Virus record (IMG/VR): IMGVR_UViG_3300032294_000424
Coordinates: 1-29,713 of that record
From: a virus
DNA: 29,713 bases
Reading direction: 5' to 3' (one strand)
Shown: one piece after another, positions 3,326-12,934 of the stretch
Position numbering within the stretch: position 1 is the stretch's first letter
Layout of the letters: every line of letters begins with the position of its first letter
Notes under the pieces: generated by a model
What the model was told of the DNA's origin: nothing
The model's input: the letters and a program-made list of their open reading frames with translations, nothing else
Databases searched by the model: none
Made by a program: the position numbers and the translations under genes

Positions 3326-3736
3326 TTAATAAGGACTGTTTGGTTTTTTACCAATGTTGTATTTTTGTACCAATTCCCATTCGTCTTTTTCTTTATGGGA
3401 TAGTATTTTAATTTGACTCAAAAATATTGGAGGTGGTTCCTCAGCTTGTTTTTTATTAACAATGGTTACCAAACCCCAATCCTGTAATAATTTTACAATG
3501 GCATTCCTGCGAGATAAGTCATTTTCGGTAATATCGGTAGGTTTTCCATCTAGTGCAAACAGTTCTTTAAAATGCACTATGTAGTATCTACCTTGTTTAT
3601 GTAGAATATGACAAGACTGGTATAGAATTCTATCTTTTTTAGACGCCACACCAATTCGTGTTAATGTTTCACGAACCTTTAAAAAATCATCTCGTTCTGT
3701 CAATGTAACTTCAACTAAATTAGTAATCGAGAACAT
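3326..3736 (-). CDS. regA: RegA translational repressor
   Basis: The 136-residue protein closely follows T4 RegA: FLKVRETLTRIGVASKKDRI at residues 18-37, then LYQSCHILHKQGRYYIVHFK, the LLQDWGLV segment in the middle, and a C-terminal WELVQKYNIG. RegA binds AT-rich sites around the starts of early mRNAs and blocks ribosome loading, including on its own operon. It comes directly after gp62 with touching start and stop codons, the same 45-44-62-regA order as T4. The C-terminal tail is slightly longer than T4's. Confidence 0.95.
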   Translation of the reverse strand: MFSITNLVEVTLTERDDFLKVRETLTRIGVASKKDRILYQSCHILHKQGRYYIVHFKELFALDGKPTDITENDLSRRNAIVKLLQDWGLVTIVNKKQAEEPPPIFLSQIKILSHKEKDEWELVQKYNIGKKPNSPY

Positions 3737-4125
3737 TACTTTTTCACTCCGCCTTTATTTGTTTTTGCTTTTATTTCAGCGATTTGTTCATCATTTAGAA
3801 TACGCAAAGCTTCTTTAGCTTTTTCATTAGAATAACCAAAGTATTCTTTTACACATTCTATATCTTTGTCAACCTCTGATTTCTGCCACGGTTGGAATTT
3901 CCGTTTCATAGGTCTTATGGTATTTAGAAAATATGAATATTGCATATCCACATCCAAAGACGGATGGATGTTCATCTCGTTTACATATAGAACGCAATCA
4001 ATATGATAGGACAAGGCTCGGTTGACTATAAATGGTTTGTAGTCTTTATAGTCATGTTCGCTCTCAAATACAGATTTTTTAGACGTGAGTATGGATGGTA
4101 TGATTTCTTTGAATAAATCTGGCAT
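3736..4125 (-). CDS. 62: Clamp loader small subunit gp62
   Basis: This 129-residue protein sits between gp44 and RegA, the fixed place of gp62 in T4-like phages. It has the expected MPDLFKEIIPSILTSKK start and the central FIVNRALSYHIDCVLYVNEM helix region with a downstream WQK segment. gp62 joins four gp44 subunits to make the ATPase that opens the gp45 ring and places it on DNA. It is shorter than the T4 protein (187 residues), as in marine relatives. Start and stop overlap both neighbours, so the three genes are translationally coupled. Confidence 0.88.
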   Translation of the reverse strand: MPDLFKEIIPSILTSKKSVFESEHDYKDYKPFIVNRALSYHIDCVLYVNEMNIHPSLDVDMQYSYFLNTIRPMKRKFQPWQKSEVDKDIECVKEYFGYSNEKAKEALRILNDEQIAEIKAKTNKGGVKK

Positions 4126-5057
4126 TATTTGAACTCACAATCCACCATGATTTCAGTCAAACAGGCAACCATGTTAATCTCATGGTCAGCCACGAAAGCT
4201 GATTGATATTGATATTTTGCGAGAATCAGAACCAACTGTGGTACGGAGTTTGGTTTAAGAACTTCATATAGACCATCATAAAGTTTACGATAAATCTTTA
4301 CGGGGTCGTTGTCCAAGTTGTTGGTGACCCACTTACGAGTAGATGCGAAATCTTTTTCTTTGAGAGACTTAATTAAATCATCAAGTTGTATATCAGCAAT
4401 ATTAGAGAGAATACCAGAATCAATTGCACCAGAAATTGAGTATCTCTGCAATTCATTAAGAATCCTGCGATTATCTGGAAAGTGTTTCGTGATAACTGCT
4501 GCCACGACATCTTTTGAATATTTGATTTTTTCTTGTTCAAGAATCCACTCAATTCGTTTGAACAGTTGAGCAGCCATCTTTTGTTTAGAACCGTTGATTT
4601 TAAAATCGATAACACTACACCTAGAGTGTATAGGGTCGATGATACGATTCTTAAAATTGCACGTAAAGATGAAAGAACAATTTGATGCAAATTCTTCAAT
4701 AGCTCCACGTAATGCTGGTTGAGTGGAGTTGGGATTAAGATAATCGGCCTCATCAATGATAATGACTTTGCGACCACCTGCCAGAGATACTGAAGAAGCG
4801 TAGTTTTTAATTTTATTGCGTAACACATCAATACCTGATTCATCTGAACCATTGATAATAATGTAATCGCAACCGACTTCATTACAAAGTGCCTTAGCGA
4901 TTGTAGTTTTTCCGACACCTGCTGTTCCAGAAAGTAATAGATTTGGTATCTCTTTTCTGTTAACGTATTCTTGGAACGTAGATTTAATGGCATCTGGTAA
5001 AATACAATCACTAATTGTTTTTGGTCGATACTTTTCGACCCATAATAAATGTTCCAT
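4125..5057 (-). CDS. 44: Clamp loader large subunit gp44 (AAA+ ATPase)
   Basis: The 310-residue protein opens with WVEKYRPKTISDCILP, the signature of RFC-type loaders. Walker A is GTAGVGKTT (44-52), Walker B VIIIDEAD (98-105), and the arginine-finger SRC motif lies at 145-147. Four copies with gp62 load the gp45 clamp for replication and late transcription. Length and order match T4 (319 residues). The start at 5057 is an ATG; 28 bases separate it from the upstream 91-residue gene. Confidence 0.97.
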   Translation of the reverse strand: MEHLLWVEKYRPKTISDCILPDAIKSTFQEYVNRKEIPNLLLSGTAGVGKTTIAKALCNEVGCDYIIINGSDESGIDVLRNKIKNYASSVSLAGGRKVIIIDEADYLNPNSTQPALRGAIEEFASNCSFIFTCNFKNRIIDPIHSRCSVIDFKINGSKQKMAAQLFKRIEWILEQEKIKYSKDVVAAVITKHFPDNRRILNELQRYSISGAIDSGILSNIADIQLDDLIKSLKEKDFASTRKWVTNNLDNDPVKIYRKLYDGLYEVLKPNSVPQLVLILAKYQYQSAFVADHEINMVACLTEIMVDCEFK

Positions 5058-6247: not shown

Positions 6248-6631
6248 TTACTGCTTCGAATAAATTATATCATGTTCATACAGAAACATCAAGCAGCACA
6301 TAGCGTGTGCCAAGTGATGTTTACCAGATTCGGGGTCTAATTCTTCACCTTGTTTCCATGCCCAAACGTGTCTTTGTAGTGCATCAAAATATCTTCGTTT
6401 GGCATCATCAACATATTTCCAATTATCACGAGCATACTTCTGAGCACCAAAGGTTAAAATTTCCACCGTTGCTTCCAATGCTTTTGATGGTAGTAAACCA
6501 TATTCAAGTTTACCACCATCAAATTTACGACCTTCTTCTGGAAAATGGACCAAATCTTCAGTCTGTTCAATTTTTGGTAAATCAACTTTATCGATTGAGA
6601 ACATAGCTTTGACTGTTGATTCGCTGAACAT
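6248..6631 (-). CDS. dATP/dGTP diphosphohydrolase-like protein (DUF5664 family)
   Basis: The 127-residue protein contains RKFDGGKLEYGLLP (residues 35-48), the ALEATVEILTFGAQKYARDN block and KHHLAHAMCCLMFLYEHD near the C-terminus. These are the hallmarks of the DUF5664 family, named dATP/dGTP diphosphohydrolase after phage enzymes. I infer a helical nucleotide hydrolase that would trim the purine dNTP pool, alongside the dCMP deaminase in the same genome. Its ATG overlaps the stop of the glycosyltransferase gene (TAATG). A second in-frame Met at residue 10 could also be the start. Confidence 0.72.
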   Translation of the reverse strand: MFSESTVKAMFSIDKVDLPKIEQTEDLVHFPEEGRKFDGGKLEYGLLPSKALEATVEILTFGAQKYARDNWKYVDDAKRRYFDALQRHVWAWKQGEELDPESGKHHLAHAMCCLMFLYEHDIIYSKQ

Positions 6632-7449
6632 TACATTTCACCAACAAAATTGGCAACTGCTGGCATATCACCAACAAAGTGATAAGTGCCGATGTGTGAA
6701 GTTTTCATCCAAGGACATAGGTGAATCTTGCCGCCAATCTTACGCCACATTTGGCAGAACATATAATCTTCACTTAGATAACGGTCAGAACCACCACCCG
6801 TGATTGAATTCTTAGTGTCAATAACTGTATCAAAGAAAGCATGAATGTAACGAGAACCGTCAAAGTGTGCTTGACCTACATGGTCAGGTTTATAACGAAT
6901 CATTGGATACGCTTCTTCCATCTTCTTGAATACTTCTCTCTTGACCATCATGAAACCTGTTCCGATTTCTAATACTTCGAGTGGTTCTGTAACGGAGAAT
7001 TGTGCGGTTCCTTTGACTGGATTAAACACATAATCACCTGTTACTTTTTCCAACATCTGTGGTTCAATATCAGGAAACTTTTCAACTGCTCTCTTTACAG
7101 ATTTCCATTTAATGGCCTTCTTAGGATAAGGACCTCCTGATACATCTTTGTCGAGCGCCAACAATGCGATGACATCCTGAGGATTAAAAGAAATATCTGA
7201 ATCTAAAAATAGTAAATGTGTGCAATCTGAACGATGCAGGTATTCGTCAACGAGATAGTTTCTCGCTCGAGTAATTAGGGACTCATTGAATAGAAATGAG
7301 AATTTGATGTTTATTCCGTATTGCATACAAAGACCTTGCAAATCTAAGCAAGCTTTCATATACAAACCGTGATTCATGCCACCATACATTGGTGTGGCTA
7401 CGAATAAACTTTTCTTTTGTAAATCTTCTTTTTTAATTTGTATTTCCAT
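6631..7449 (-). CDS. Glycosyltransferase-like protein (GT-A fold)
   Basis: The 272-residue protein has the layout of a short GT2-like glycosyltransferase: SLFVATPMYGG at 14-24, THLLFLDSDISFNPQDVI with a DxD metal site (Asp83, Asp85), a GTGFMMVKREVF acceptor-side motif near 163 and SEDYMFCQMWRKIGG near 225. It would transfer a sugar from a nucleotide sugar. The acceptor is unknown: DNA, a virion protein or host surface glycan are all possible. It is the first gene after a strong terminator and is co-transcribed with the DUF5664 and clamp genes. The start is ATG 7449 with GGAGCG upstream. There is no membrane segment. Confidence 0.78.
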   Translation of the reverse strand: MEIQIKKEDLQKKSLFVATPMYGGMNHGLYMKACLDLQGLCMQYGINIKFSFLFNESLITRARNYLVDEYLHRSDCTHLLFLDSDISFNPQDVIALLALDKDVSGGPYPKKAIKWKSVKRAVEKFPDIEPQMLEKVTGDYVFNPVKGTAQFSVTEPLEVLEIGTGFMMVKREVFKKMEEAYPMIRYKPDHVGQAHFDGSRYIHAFFDTVIDTKNSITGGGSDRYLSEDYMFCQMWRKIGGKIHLCPWMKTSHIGTYHFVGDMPAVANFVGEM

Positions 7450-7951: not shown

Positions 7952-9217
7952 TTATCTGCCAACCTGCGGCAAATATTTTGACTTGGTTTCTTCCCAAGAC
8001 AAATAAATTAGGTCATCATAGAAAAGAGTTTCATATGAAACATTATTCTTTTTCTGTAATTGCCTAATTCGACCCTTAGCATACTTGGTTTTCCAAATAT
8101 TGGCAAGGGCTTCTTCACTGGTATCAAATGCTTTTACCAGTTTTTCATCTGTGATTTCTTTTCTCAAAAATTCATTTGTATTGTTATACAAGGGAGAGAA
8201 ATAGATACCACGCTGATGTTCGGTACGAATCAATTCTTTAGGAATGCCAAGTTTAGAGTAGGCAAAATTCAAAGAACGATTTTTATGGTCACGCTTTAGT
8301 GGAAGACCTTGTTGATTTTTGGCTTCCCACCATTCAAAATATTTTCTAGTATGATTCTCTTTAATCCAATCGAACACTAATTTTTTGGTTGCTCTTGATG
8401 GTTCGAAAGCAACAGAACCAGAAGAAAAACCCATAGGACTCCAATGCTCAAGTCCATCATATTGCGAAAGACCGTTTGCTTTGGTTTTTCCATATAGTGA
8501 CGTTGTAGTAACGCCAACAAGAGTGTCTCCATATTGTCTTTTCCAATCTGCTTGAACTGTGTCCGATAAACACATTAATGCCAACAATTTACCACCCATA
8601 TAATTAAAACCTAGAGGTTGTAATGGAACGATGGTGGAACCGATGGCCGTATGATTAATCATGTGTTGTTGTGTCTTAACATCTCTAGACCATCCAATTG
8701 CATTATCACGAGGAGTGAGGTCCAGGAAGTCTGAGGAGATGCAAATAACACCAAGATATTTACCTGTTACTTCGTCTGTCAAAACATAGAATAGATTACG
8801 ACCAATATTACTGTTGTTCTTCATTGTGGAAGAAAAAGTGCGAATGGCATTCCATCTTTCAGCATCAGGACCATTTGAAAGTACCATAATAGGTTTTAAT
8901 TTTTCAAAATCATCCGGTTCTTTTGGCATCCAAAAATTGGATTTAACATCCTTAATTAATTCATCTTGTTCAGGATTGACCATTTGAACTTCTTGTCCCC
9001 AAAGAGTGGACACATCATGAACAGGATATCGTTCTTTTACTTCACACCATTTTTGATATAGAGTATATTCACGAACATCCATTTGTGATGCATAAGTCAA
9101 ATCTTCAATGAGAATCTTTTTCATTGATTCTTCATCGATGTGTTCAAAAGAAGATGGCAGATTATTATCTTGCCATTCTTTCCATTGTTTTTCTACGAAC
9201 TCAATTGGTGTTGCCAT
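7952..9217 (-). CDS. DruA-like protein (DUF4338-type domain)
   Basis: The 421-residue protein has a core from about residue 135 to 265 resembling DUF4338, the domain of Druantia protein DruA: NIGRNLFYVL, GKYLGVICISSDFLDL, TPRDNAIGWS, a PLQPLGFNYMGGKLLALMCL segment, DWKRQYGDTLVGVTTTSLYG. In DUF4338 proteins the matching blocks are LGxxxxSS, RDxxIGW, a hydrophobic LxxLLSLxLR region and DWxxRYGxxxxLxETFV. This is motif reading, not a database hit. The N-terminal 130 residues and the basic C-terminus are not recognised. The function of the domain is unknown. Its ATG overlaps the stop of the deformylase gene (TAATG), so it is the last gene of the gp47-gp46 unit. Confidence 0.55.
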   Translation of the reverse strand: MATPIEFVEKQWKEWQDNNLPSSFEHIDEESMKKILIEDLTYASQMDVREYTLYQKWCEVKERYPVHDVSTLWGQEVQMVNPEQDELIKDVKSNFWMPKEPDDFEKLKPIMVLSNGPDAERWNAIRTFSSTMKNNSNIGRNLFYVLTDEVTGKYLGVICISSDFLDLTPRDNAIGWSRDVKTQQHMINHTAIGSTIVPLQPLGFNYMGGKLLALMCLSDTVQADWKRQYGDTLVGVTTTSLYGKTKANGLSQYDGLEHWSPMGFSSGSVAFEPSRATKKLVFDWIKENHTRKYFEWWEAKNQQGLPLKRDHKNRSLNFAYSKLGIPKELIRTEHQRGIYFSPLYNNTNEFLRKEITDEKLVKAFDTSEEALANIWKTKYAKGRIRQLQKKNNVSYETLFYDDLIYLSWEETKSKYLPQVGR

Positions 9218-9795
9218 TATTTTAGTTTCAACTTTTTCAATATTTTATTGCGTTTTTGCATACCCATTTGTAATGCTAAAGGTTTTACTTTGCTAGTATA
9301 CACGATTCCATTCATATGGTCAAGTTCATGTTGAAAACAACGAGCAGATATACCAGAAAGTGTTACCTCTCTCTTGTTGCCGTTGAAGTCTTGGTATTCA
9401 ACCGTAATGATTTCTGGTCTGGTAATTCTCAAGGCTAAGAAAGGAAACGATAAACATCCTTCAACCATGTGAACTTCGCCTTGAGACATTGTAATTTTTG
9501 GATTAAAAAATGCCACAAAATCTTCACCAGCTCCCATAACAAAGACACGATATGGTAGTCCACATTGATTGGCCGACAATCCAATACCGTGATGCATCTT
9601 ACAGGTTTCAACCAATGATGATGCCAACTCAGAAGGATTGATAGGAGGATTTTTAAAATCAAACTCAGGTAATGACTGTCTCAGAATAGGATGTTCACTA
9701 TGAACTAACTCTAACAGTTTAACCTTTTGGGTTACTTGCGTTTGTTTTTCCGTATCAATGATAATTAAATCATCTTTATTTTGCACTTCACTCAT
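9217..9795 (-). CDS. def: Peptide deformylase
   Basis: The 192-residue enzyme shows all three deformylase motifs: GIGLSANQ (70-77), EGCLS (112-116, zinc ligand Cys114) and HELDH (156-160, two zinc ligands and the catalytic Glu). It removes the formyl group from new N-terminal methionines. Marine T4-like phages, notably cyanophages, often carry one; host-photosystem maintenance has been proposed there, but nothing here shows such a host. An N-terminal extension of about 25 residues precedes the core. The ATG overlaps the gp46 stop, with AAAGG as ribosome site. Confidence 0.96.
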   Translation of the reverse strand: MSEVQNKDDLIIIDTEKQTQVTQKVKLLELVHSEHPILRQSLPEFDFKNPPINPSELASSLVETCKMHHGIGLSANQCGLPYRVFVMGAGEDFVAFFNPKITMSQGEVHMVEGCLSFPFLALRITRPEIITVEYQDFNGNKREVTLSGISARCFQHELDHMNGIVYTSKVKPLALQMGMQKRNKILKKLKLK

Positions 9796-11513
9796 TATAA
9801 CCTTTCTATAACTGAAAAATTGTTTTTCTTTACAAAACGAATTACACTTCTAAACTTATCAAACATCTGGTCAGACTTATGGCTAATCACAAACACATTA
9901 GTTTCAGATGATAAATCTTTCAATAAAGACATTAACAATTCAACTGATGCGGTATCTAAACTAGAATCAAATACTTCATCCAATATTAACAGATTAGTGT
10001 TAGTAGAATTCTTCAACTTGGCAATTTGACGCCAAGTAAACAATAGTGCCAGGTCAATCTTTTGTTTTTCACCTTCTGAAAAATTAGCATATGCGAATTC
10101 ATCACGGTGCCTAGATTTAATTGTTTCTTCAAAACTTTCATTGATGTTAAAGTTTACAAAGAAGTCCATTGAGGTCAAATACTTGTTAATCAACTTGTTC
10201 ATGACAGGTAAGTATTGCCTAATGATTTTGGTTTTAATGCCGGTATCTTTTAATAAATTTCCAGCAAACTCATAATATTGTTTTTCTGTTGAGAGTTCTT
10301 CTTGTTTTGTAATCAATTCTGCCAGTTCAGATTTGAATTCTTTTAACTTGGCATTTTCTTCTTCTAAATTATCTTTACGGTTAGATAAATCATTAACCTC
10401 ACCGTTTAATTTGTGTATAAATGTGTTCACGGCTGTGATTGTAGAATTGTGTTTTACAATCTCATTGTTGTGTGCCTGAATGTGTTTGATATACTTTTGA
10501 ATTTCTTCAATTCTCTGGCTTGTGGCAGTAATCTGTGTTGATATATCTGCCAAAGCTGTAGACACTTCACCTTTAGTTTTATCTAAAGTTGATACCATCT
10601 GCCCTTTATATTCTTGGTCAATACTTTGTTTACAGGTTGGACAGTTATCATTTTCTTCGTAGAAAGAAACTTCTTTATCAATCTTCTTGATTCGTGATTC
10701 TAGCTTGGCTTCTAATTGCAATAACTTGGAACTTTTCTTTTCCATAGCCATCTTATCAGAAATTTTACTATTCAAAACATCAATGTGTTTTTGGATTAAT
10801 TCAATATCTTTGGTAAGTTTTTTTACTTGTTCTTCGGATTCCAATACTTCTTTTAATTTCTTTTCAATCTCGGCATCGTTATGTTTCTTATGTTCCTCGA
10901 TGCTTTGTTTTTGGAAATTGATTCTTTCTGAAGTCAAGTCCATATCATATTTGTTTTTGGTTGTCAGGTCTTTAATTGCCGACATTTTCTCTTTAACGAT
11001 TGAATTCATTGATGAGAATATTTGTATGTCCAACAAATCTTCGATGATAGCTCGTCTATCACCAGGTGACAACTGCATGAAAGGAACAAATGAGGCAGAA
11101 CCTAGAATAACAACCTGAGTAAATGTTTTATAGTTTAGTTTTAAAATAAACTTTTCTAGATGTTCCTGGTAATCTTTTGCTTTGGCATCTTGGTCGACCA
11201 TTACATCATTACAATATACCTCAAACATATTGGGCTTGATGCCTCTAATTACCTTATAATTCTTTTTACCAATAGAAAACTCAATCTCAACGACACATTG
11301 TTGTTGATTGATTGAATTAAGTAATTGTGGTTTGTTGATTTTACGAAAAGGTTTACCAAAAAGACCAAAACACAACGCATCCAATATTGTGGATTTACCT
11401 GCGCCATTGTTACCTACAATGAGTGTGTTTGGTGATTTTGTTAAATTTATTTCTGTAAAACTGTTTCCTGTTGAAAGGAAATTTTTCCAACGAACTTTTT
11501 GGAAAATAATCAT
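9795..11513 (-). CDS. 46: Recombination nuclease subunit gp46 (Rad50/SbcC-like ATPase)
   Basis: The 572-residue SMC-like protein has Walker A GNNGAGKST (34-42), long coiled coils, a zinc hook CPTCKQ (Cys291, Cys294), the ABC signature FSEGEKQ (478-484), Walker B LLILDE (508-513) and a VISHK switch near 545. With gp47 it resects DNA ends for recombination-dependent replication and host DNA breakdown. The length is close to T4 gp46 (560). No clear ribosome site precedes the ATG at 11513; translation may depend on coupling with the 105-residue gene 12 bases upstream. Confidence 0.96.
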   Translation of the reverse strand: MIIFQKVRWKNFLSTGNSFTEINLTKSPNTLIVGNNGAGKSTILDALCFGLFGKPFRKINKPQLLNSINQQQCVVEIEFSIGKKNYKVIRGIKPNMFEVYCNDVMVDQDAKAKDYQEHLEKFILKLNYKTFTQVVILGSASFVPFMQLSPGDRRAIIEDLLDIQIFSSMNSIVKEKMSAIKDLTTKNKYDMDLTSERINFQKQSIEEHKKHNDAEIEKKLKEVLESEEQVKKLTKDIELIQKHIDVLNSKISDKMAMEKKSSKLLQLEAKLESRIKKIDKEVSFYEENDNCPTCKQSIDQEYKGQMVSTLDKTKGEVSTALADISTQITATSQRIEEIQKYIKHIQAHNNEIVKHNSTITAVNTFIHKLNGEVNDLSNRKDNLEEENAKLKEFKSELAELITKQEELSTEKQYYEFAGNLLKDTGIKTKIIRQYLPVMNKLINKYLTSMDFFVNFNINESFEETIKSRHRDEFAYANFSEGEKQKIDLALLFTWRQIAKLKNSTNTNLLILDEVFDSSLDTASVELLMSLLKDLSSETNVFVISHKSDQMFDKFRSVIRFVKKNNFSVIERL

Positions 11514-11525
11514 AATGTGATTTTT

Positions 11526-11843
11526 TTAAATGTCAATATATTGTTTTTGTGTAACCTTGATTTCTGATTGTCCAGTTTCTTCTAACAAAACTTTTTCCAT
11601 GTGTTGAATTTGTTCTTGACCTAACGATTCTTCAATATACGAAAAGAGAATGTCTTTACCTGAAAAATTAATATCTTCCAATGTAATGGGTTTCTCACCT
11701 TTATCATAAAGAATGTGTGCCACATAAAGTTTCTTTGTTTCACCTAAACAATGGTAAAAACGAATTTCAGTTATGACATTTTGTTTGCCTTGAACTTCTT
11801 CGGCACCTACTTGAATAACTTCATATTTAAATCTTGAATCCAT
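11526..11843 (-). CDS. Unknown protein between gp47 and gp46 (105 aa)
   Basis: The 105-residue protein starts MDSRFKYEVIQVGAEEVQGK and is predicted to be beta strands (residues 6-50) followed by an acidic helix (SYIEESLGQEQIQHMEKVLL). No family is recognised. Its ATG overlaps the gp47 stop (TAATG), and gp46 follows within 12 bases. T4 also carries small open frames in the 46/47 region, but I cannot show homology. Conserved co-transcription suggests a role with the nuclease. Confidence 0.7.
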   Translation of the reverse strand: MDSRFKYEVIQVGAEEVQGKQNVITEIRFYHCLGETKKLYVAHILYDKGEKPITLEDINFSGKDILFSYIEESLGQEQIQHMEKVLLEETGQSEIKVTQKQYIDI

Positions 11844-12934
11844 TATGCTTGCTCCGTGTTAATTGCCTCAACATACAATTCTCTAAGAACTGATTTGAGT
11901 TTTTCGTTATTGATATGTTCTTCCTTGATACTATCAACATACTTACCAATAATAGTCATAGTATCTTCTGCTTGGTCAATCATATCATCTTCTACACCTT
12001 CTGTCAAGTCTGTAAAATCTTCCGCAATGGTAATATCGATAGGATTTACATTGTAAAGATTATTCATGAACTTGTCAAATAGATAAGGATTAGTTTTGTT
12101 TAATACCACAACTTTTACATATGTGTTGGTATATTTACTTAAATCTTTGCTGGTAATTTCGGTAATTGTATTTTCTTTGTCATCATATGTGATGCGATGA
12201 AACATGACATTCGGATTAGGAACAAATTCTAAGTCACGAGTATTCAGGTCAAAGATGTGAAATCCTCTTGTGTCGTTGTAATCTTGCCATGTTAATTCAT
12301 ATGGATTACCCAAATAATAAACATTATCAGCATGACTTCTGTGGTGGTAGTGACCACTAAAAACCATATCAAATCGCCTGAAGATTTCACGATTCAAACC
12401 TTCTTCAGATGGCATACCACGATGCATAGCAAACCCTGCAATCTCAAAATGTCCCATGCAAAGGTCTGCATCAGTATTCTTAATGGTATCTAAACATTCT
12501 TGATAGTTCTCAGGACAAATCCACGGAATCATACAGATATTCACACCCAATGGGTTATCAGCAGTTTGGTTTAATTTAATTGTTTCTGGTGCATCAATGA
12601 CGTGAATGTTATCATATTCACGCAACAACAAATCTACTGAGTTGACATCGTTTGTGTTTTTAAAATAAGTATCATGGTTACCAGCCAACATATGAACCTT
12701 GATACCTTTTTTATGTAACTTATCAAAGAACATTTCTTTTGCTCTTTTGAGAGAGAAAAAGTTGATATATTTTCTGCGGTCAAATGTATCACCGAGAATT
12801 AAAACGGTATCAATATTGTTTTCTTCTAATACAGGGAAAAATGTTTCTGAGTAAAATTTATCATAGAAGTCCAAAAAATGGACAGAATCATTCCTAGAAC
12901 CAAAGTGTTGGTCCGTTATAATAGCCACCTTCAT
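11843..12934 (-). CDS. 47: Recombination nuclease subunit gp47 (Mre11/SbcD-like)
   Basis: The 363-residue phosphoesterase shows the Mre11 metal-site motifs: DQH (8-10), GDTFDRR (48-54), GNHD (85-88), GHFE (161-164) and GHYHHRS (194-200). It is the nuclease partner of gp46. The length matches T4 gp47 (339) with a slightly longer C-terminus. The ribosome site before ATG 12934 is weak (AGAAAG). Two sigma70-type box pairs lie inside the gene (11979-12007 and 12050-12078), in the direction of the downstream 105-residue gene and gp46. Confidence 0.96.
   Translation of the reverse strand: MKVAIITDQHFGSRNDSVHFLDFYDKFYSETFFPVLEENNIDTVLILGDTFDRRKYINFFSLKRAKEMFFDKLHKKGIKVHMLAGNHDTYFKNTNDVNSVDLLLREYDNIHVIDAPETIKLNQTADNPLGVNICMIPWICPENYQECLDTIKNTDADLCMGHFEIAGFAMHRGMPSEEGLNREIFRRFDMVFSGHYHHRSHADNVYYLGNPYELTWQDYNDTRGFHIFDLNTRDLEFVPNPNVMFHRITYDDKENTITEITSKDLSKYTNTYVKVVVLNKTNPYLFDKFMNNLYNVNPIDITIAEDFTDLTEGVEDDMIDQAEDTMTIIGKYVDSIKEEHINNEKLKSVLRELYVEAINTEQA
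11979..12007 (-). promoter_or_regulatory. Possible internal sigma70-type promoter in gene 47
   Basis: Minus strand TTGACA (12007-12002), 17 bases, TATGAT (11984-11979), inside coding sequence. A second pair, TTGACA and TACAAT at 17 bases, lies at 12050-12078. Either could supply extra gp46 transcript; coding constraint or chance is also possible. Confidence 0.3.

Follow-up and report, generated by a model that had tools for sequence, protein, structure and literature searches.

Why would a T4-like aquatic phage keep a DruA domain, otherwise associated with the Druantia anti-phage system, among its recombination genes, and what might the encoded protein do there? The question is raised by a 29,713-nucleotide stretch of viral DNA (IMG/VR record IMGVR_UViG_3300032294_000424, positions 1 to 29,713), referred to here as the window, in which a 421-residue DruA-like (PF14236) protein is encoded at 7952–9217 on the minus strand. 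The coordinates and length of this open reading frame (ORF) agree with an earlier, sequence-only reading of the same DNA, with the strand now set as minus; a plus-strand reading of 7952–9217 was ruled out by stop codons throughout. The answer favored here, held with roughly even confidence, is that a phage lineage of DruA proteins with a GNAT fold acylates bases of replicating phage DNA, and would by this means protect or mark the genome.

Membership in the DruA Family

The window protein is well supported as a genuine member of the DruA (DUF4338) family. The Pfam DruA profile, PF14236, matches residues 131–352 to positions 73–296 of 297 (E 1.8e-21), and the score of 77.1 bits compares with a curated cut-off of 27 bits. 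This search bears out the assignment made from the sequence alone, and the motifs on which that assignment was based (LGVICISS, RDNAIGWS, GGKLLALMCL, DWKRQYGD, and TTTSLYG) are all present in the translation. PF14236 is the sole Pfam family above cut-off in the protein, which hence has no DDE transposase domain. The PADLOC DruA profile also matches (E 4.9e-17), and the protein falls within PHROG 19197 (E 4.6e-27), a group without known function. A sequence search of the PDB with the protein returned no relatives, and an NCBIfam search returned no match.

Profile–profile alignment by hhalign joined the phage proteins to Druantia DruA, the latter taken from three loci that each have a DEAD/DEAH helicase nearby, with a probability of 99.6% and E 1.4e-24 over 259 columns, including the C-terminal extension described below. 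Between Druantia DruA and a set of 31 diverse phage proteins, the shared residues include G139, D148 (D or E among the phage proteins), G156, R170, P201, G208-G209-K210-L211, S240, G243, S251, Y253, L256, R336, and W375. The window locus is nonetheless not a Druantia system, since neither a DruE-type helicase nor any other Dru gene occurs among the neighbors, and the window as a whole yielded one helicase only, a UvsW-like protein (phrog_16).

Predicted Fold and Conserved Elements

An AlphaFold (AF2) model of the DruA-like protein, built with 31 sequences, had a predicted local distance difference test (pLDDT) value of 90.4 and a predicted template modeling (TM) score of 0.84. A Foldseek search of the PDB with this model returned GNAT acyltransferases, save for malonyl-CoA decarboxylase and a few chance matches, with TM scores by target length of up to 0.56. 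Independently of the present model, DUF4338 has been called a GNAT domain, fused to DndF (PMC10853773). A GNAT acyltransferase fold, with the central strands, the motif A strand-loop-helix, and beta5 in order, is thus a well-supported prediction for the window protein.

The predicted GNAT core (residues ~131–270; 8408–8827, minus strand) is delimited by AF2 secondary structure, the Foldseek matches, and the start of the Pfam match at residue 131. It runs strand-strand, an insert with R170-D/N171 and G175, strand, helix, and strand. Within it lies IVPLQPLGFNYMGGKLL (residues 196–212; 8582–8632, minus strand), a conserved strand-loop-helix at the position of the GNAT acyl-CoA loop, or motif A. 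In GNAT enzymes, this element holds the pyrophosphate of acyl-CoA. The pattern that the model places there, P-x-G-x-N-x-x-GGKLL, is nearly invariant, and P201, G208, G209, K210, and L211 are common to the window protein and Druantia DruA. A further segment, TTSLYG...S-x-Y-x-x-L...G (residues 238–263; 8429–8506, minus strand), corresponds to beta5 and the loop that follows, of which residues 247–249 are modeled with low confidence. This segment shares S240, G243, S251, Y253, L256, and G263 with Druantia DruA, and motif comparison puts Y253 at the place of Tyr159 in the Mom protein of phage Mu. Beyond the core, a C-terminal extension (residues 311–389; 8051–8287, minus strand) is predicted to consist of a helix, a strand with R336-x-I-Y339, and a long basic helix with W375 and R383. 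It is kept in phage and Druantia DruA, with R336 and W375 present in all.

Transposase-Fused DruA Proteins and Probable Kinship with Mom

DruA domains are not confined to Druantia and phages. PF14236 scored above cut-off in 12 of 200 genomes sampled from the phylum of one gammaproteobacterial hit, a metagenome-assembled genome (MAG), and in several of these proteins the DruA domain is fused to a DDE transposase, as confirmed by Pfam. The proteobacterial fusions (loci L395:33-2048, L396:1513-2529, and L397:3-770) carry DDE/Tn5-like or H-repeat-type transposase domains, and most have Mom-like HHYLG and ETFVD motifs. Such fusions suggest a mobile-element role for the DruA domain outside Druantia. 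The description of the window gene as a phage copy of a defense-associated domain therefore has to be amended.

The transposase-fused proteins also provide a link to Mom. Their motifs HHYLG, NLAS, and ETFVD..F.GT.YRAANW parallel HYS, RNSES, and SFAD...G.VYQASNF of Mom, and the positions of the Mom His-Tyr and Asp are mostly kept. Aligned with Mom by hhalign, they gave probabilities of 94–95% and E-values of 6e-8 to 1e-7, whereas reversed profiles gave E 0.26 or worse and column-shuffled profiles scored ≤20 versus 57. Two of the fusion proteins matched the Pfam Mom profile at E 1.3e-4 and 1.8e-4, below its cut-off. On the other side, the fusions align with a joint profile of phage and Druantia DruA at E 1.8e-12. 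The window protein had no match to the Mom family (PF25680) up to E 10, and neither the phage DruA-like proteins nor those of Druantia, which lack the His-Tyr and Asp positions of Mom, are Mom.

Structural comparison is in keeping with this link. In a search of BFVD with the DruA-like model, the matches ranked 7–13, which follow its own kin, all recur among the matches of a model made for phage Mu Mom (pLDDT 77), and the match ranked 7 is the first for Mom. Elements follow one another in the Mom model as they do in the DruA-like model, down to a C-terminal strand, which bears an invariant Arg-Tyr (R216-Y217; R336-x-I-Y339 in the window protein), and a basic helix. Taken together, distant profile and fold comparisons support kinship of the DruA family with phage Mu Mom by way of the transposase-fused proteins. 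One cyanophage DruA-like gene is annotated as “methylcarbamoylase mom”. Methylophilales phage Melnitz-3 (Kyanoviridae; L147:1492-2301) has a separate protein that resembles Mu Mom and bears only a DUF465 annotation; relatives of it are found on 165 IMG/VR contigs. The DruA-like model also has strong structural counterparts in the giant viruses Faunusvirus, Yasminevirus, and Dasosvirus (BFVD A0A3G4ZXG3, A0A5K0UAJ3, and A0A3G4ZRA1; E 2e-19 to 2e-9).

Operon Position, Distribution, and Selection

The gene belongs to a translationally coupled operon, all on the minus strand, in the order gp47, ORF105, gp46, peptide deformylase (pdf), and the DruA-like gene. The coupling to pdf and gp46/gp47 noted in the sequence-only reading was confirmed by PHROG assignments and by one-base overlaps. 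The pdf gene (9217–9795; phrog_2890) has one base of its stop in common with the start of the DruA-like gene (taATG), and it overlaps gp46, an SbcC-like recombination nuclease subunit (9795–11513; phrog_77, E 8.8e-177), by one base as well. The gene for the other, SbcD-like subunit, gp47 (11843–12934; phrog_100, E 4.4e-118), likewise overlaps ORF105 (11526–11843), a tightly placed gene between gp47 and gp46. ORF105 codes for 105 residues of unknown function, and Pfam and PHROG searches with it gave no match. At its place in other pelagiphages there is a 2-oxoglutarate (2OG)-Fe(II) oxygenase or an unknown gene.

Relatives of the window protein are numerous. One scan of IMG/VR with a single query found them on at least 491 contigs, the best 80 of which show 87–92% identity, and further scans found 117 and 343 contigs. 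The ratio of nonsynonymous to synonymous substitution rates (dN/dS) between the window gene and its relatives is 0.05–0.10, typically ~0.07, so the gene is under strong purifying selection; this ratio and the 491 contigs place the DruA-like signal far beyond chance. The closest isolates are the Pelagibacter phages Mosig (59% identity) and HTVC008M (56%), followed by ~25 Synechococcus phage records with 29–40% identity over the core.

The proteins separate into two lineages in the tree, each with its own place in the genome. In the pdf lineage (the window and pelagiphages), the gene directly follows pdf, with the one-base overlap seen in 103 related loci. In the clamp-loader lineage (cyanophages), it is flanked by gp44 and gp62 and commonly overlaps gp62 by 4 bases. 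HTVC008M has one copy of each lineage at separate places. In the window, gp44 and gp62 (3736–5057, minus strand) overlap directly with no DruA-like gene between them, so the usual site of a second copy is vacant.

Several variants were encountered. The HTVC008M copy at L002:7989-9131 is without ~40 residues (window residues 343–379, W375 included) that seem to be retained in its IMG/VR relatives, possibly a deletion in the isolate. Two contigs carry two DruA-like copies in tandem (L092:2280-4705 and L093:969-3475); the paired genes differ from each other, and the contigs, binned as a Thermoplasmata MAG, are probably phage. A Thermoplasmata “chromosome” record, CP070751 (L099:8001-8723), has a DruA-like gene of the cyanophage type together with an ORF similar to gp43, beside masked stretches, and is likely phage contamination or MAG misassembly. 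Used alone as query for a scan of genomes, the window protein gave no match; an alignment as query gave nine loci, several of them clearly phage contigs binned as MAGs. In Mosig, the region around gp46/gp47, which lies upstream of the DruA-like gene, has four annotated 2OG-Fe(II)/phytanoyl-CoA dioxygenase genes (L001:1-7382). It is possible that these are base hydroxylases that feed a modification pathway.

A Proposed Acyltransferase Acting on DNA

The predicted fold, the kinship with Mom, and the replication and recombination context together favor an acyltransferase that acts on DNA. The settings of the domain have ties to DNA: the gp46/gp47 operon of the window and pelagiphages, the gp44-gp62 operon of cyanophages, the DDE transposase fusions, and the helicase neighbors of Druantia. 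Under the proposal, the DruA-like protein would most likely be made together with replication and recombination proteins, and would hold an acyl-CoA-like donor, probably in its QPxGxNxxGGKLL loop. The acyl group would then be passed onto bases of replicating phage DNA, and the acylated genome would be marked or shielded from host nucleases. Four elements of this scheme, namely catalysis, DNA as substrate, the kind of group transferred, and protection as the purpose, are inferred.

A number of points weigh against this proposal. Each Foldseek match to the PDB is weak taken singly (E >0.001), and since many GNATs acetylate proteins, the substrate cannot be read from the fold alone. Direct hhalign comparison of the phage or Druantia profiles with Mom was not significant, so Mom is reached only by way of the transposon family. 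In the alignment columns, the invariant Mom His-Tyr (before beta2) and the SFAD aspartate (after beta5) are not conserved in phage or Druantia proteins, which implies that their chemistry is not that of Mom or that activity has been lost. The charge of the whole protein, about −2, is atypical of a strong DNA binder, with basic stretches at residues 300–345 and 365–395. Finally, no modified base has been reported for these phages in the literature found. A link to the 5-carboxymethylcytosine hypermodification of Synechococcus phage S-B43 was considered and dropped: the paper names no GNAT (PMC12783734), and S-B43 is absent from the phage records with the gene.

A broader form of the idea is more tentative. 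The DruA proteins of phages, Druantia, and transposases could, together with Mom, make up a single superfamily whose enzymes acylate DNA. In that case, the DNA of abundant pelagiphages and cyanophages would contain an undescribed acylated base that one or two DruA-like enzymes produce during replication, and a relative of the enzyme would act on DNA in Druantia.

Alternative Explanations

Two rivals stand foremost. The first, which the GNAT fold would also suit, is an acyltransferase of host or phage proteins, such as RNA polymerase or replication and translation factors, perhaps working with the deformylase on nascent N-termini. Coupling to pdf in most window-type loci is consistent with such a role, and a GNAT of phiKMV-like phages, Rac, acts on RNA polymerase (PMC7824862). 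The cyanophage lineage, however, sits in the clamp-loader operon and not with pdf, the nearest structural family among viral models is Mom rather than the protein GNATs, and relatives of DruA adjoin helicases or transposases; protein acylation is accordingly considered unlikely. About as improbable is the second, a non-catalytic DNA-binding or replication-repair accessory, in which the DruA fold would be a scaffold for gp46/gp47, the clamp loader, or recombination intermediates. The position of the gene in replication-recombination operons, the missing Mom catalytic positions, and the basic C-terminal segments would all fit. Yet the motif A GGKL and TTS..G/S.Y are nearly invariant in phage and Druantia DruA, a pattern that resembles an active site rather than a scaffold.

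The sequence-only reading had offered three roles, namely a decoy or antagonist of Druantia, a recombination enzyme, and a factor against rival phages, and none of these received direct support. A decoy that replaces DruA and blocks a host Druantia system could draw on true homology over the whole domain. The idea is weak, to the point of being scarcely credible: the gene belongs to the phage core, is old, has diverged from Druantia DruA (~21% identity), and, over hundreds of contigs, is under strong purifying selection; an ancient two-lineage gene of core operons is unlike a captured accessory gene. In addition, tblastn with a Druantia DruA found one phage record only, and a scan of viral contigs with a Druantia DruA query found no contigs. 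Only slightly less remote is a weapon against rival phages, whereby modification licenses the phage's own DNA and a partner nuclease destroys unmodified DNA. Mom-family domains fused to endonucleases in jumbo phages have been read this way (PMC7824862), and fold neighbors of the window protein include endonuclease fusions, but the protein itself has no nuclease domain, and the nuclease coupled to it, gp46/47, is the one ordinarily used in T4 recombination. What the GNAT fold and the Mom link suggest is rather a DNA acyltransferase, an option absent from the sequence-only reading.

Other Features of the Window

The window is a 29.7-kb fragment of a T4-like phage, as had been proposed from the sequence. 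PHROG searches identified gp47, gp46, deformylase, gp45, gp44, gp62, regA, gp55, UvsW, portal, capsid, sheath, and terminase. Scans of the window for promoters (27 matches versus 25.7 expected) and terminators (5 versus 3.0) were at chance level. A 272-residue protein at 6631–7449 (phrog_1574, unknown) has weak similarity to Anp1 glycosyltransferase (E 1.3e-4, below cut-off).

Prior Knowledge and Significance

A DruA-like structure has been found by Phold in six Synechococcus phages, with a TM score of 0.73 (PMC12774648), and the Mosig gene was already annotated as DUF4338. A literature search, with subscription literature outside its reach, found nothing that joins DruA with Mom or describes the operon context, and the literature found has no description of a DruA activity. 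The Mom link and the core-operon role thus appear to be new. Recent mechanistic work on Druantia concerns type III (DruH-DruE). The long-open question of DruA function is made testable here by a conserved homologue carried by phages that are among the most abundant in aquatic settings, together with a specific prediction, acyl modification on DNA. If true, this would add a new base-modification route for T4-like phages, explain a widespread unknown gene (PHROG 19197), and join defense, transposons, and phages through one enzyme family.

Comparison with Known Systems

Mom of phage Mu (PF25680) shares with the window protein the predicted GNAT fold, with a matching order of core elements and C-terminal extension. 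The window protein differs in its extra N-terminal 130 residues, its RD-IGW insert, and its lack of the Mom His-Tyr/Asp and of a PF25680 match. Transposase-fused DruA proteins have PF14236 and the RD-x-W-IGW insert in common with it, but carry a transposase domain and keep the Mom-like HHYLG and ETFVD...Y.AAN motifs.

The DruA of Druantia types I and II (e.g., pKF715A, pNWAT01, and pMtWR-220) belongs to the same Pfam family, and the profile match spans the GNAT core plus the C-terminal extension. Shared motifs are GR, D148, R170-D171, IGW, GGKL, S240, G243, S-x-Y-x-x-L, R336, and W375. In contrast, identity is ~21%, the first 130 residues are unlike, Druantia DruA forms its own clade in the tree apart from the phage proteins, and the window gene is in a phage operon without a large DruE-type helicase.

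Closer still are the phage-borne proteins of the same family. Those of Synechococcus phages (S-PRM1 and others) belong to the gp44-gp62 lineage, with ~25% identity to the window protein, whereas the latter is of the pdf lineage of pelagiphages. The DUF4338 proteins of pelagiphages Mosig EXVC030M and HTVC008M are those of the closest isolates (56–59% identity) and share the same pdf-druA operon, to which Mosig adds annotated 2OG-Fe(II) oxygenase genes, and HTVC008M is set apart by carrying the second lineage too.
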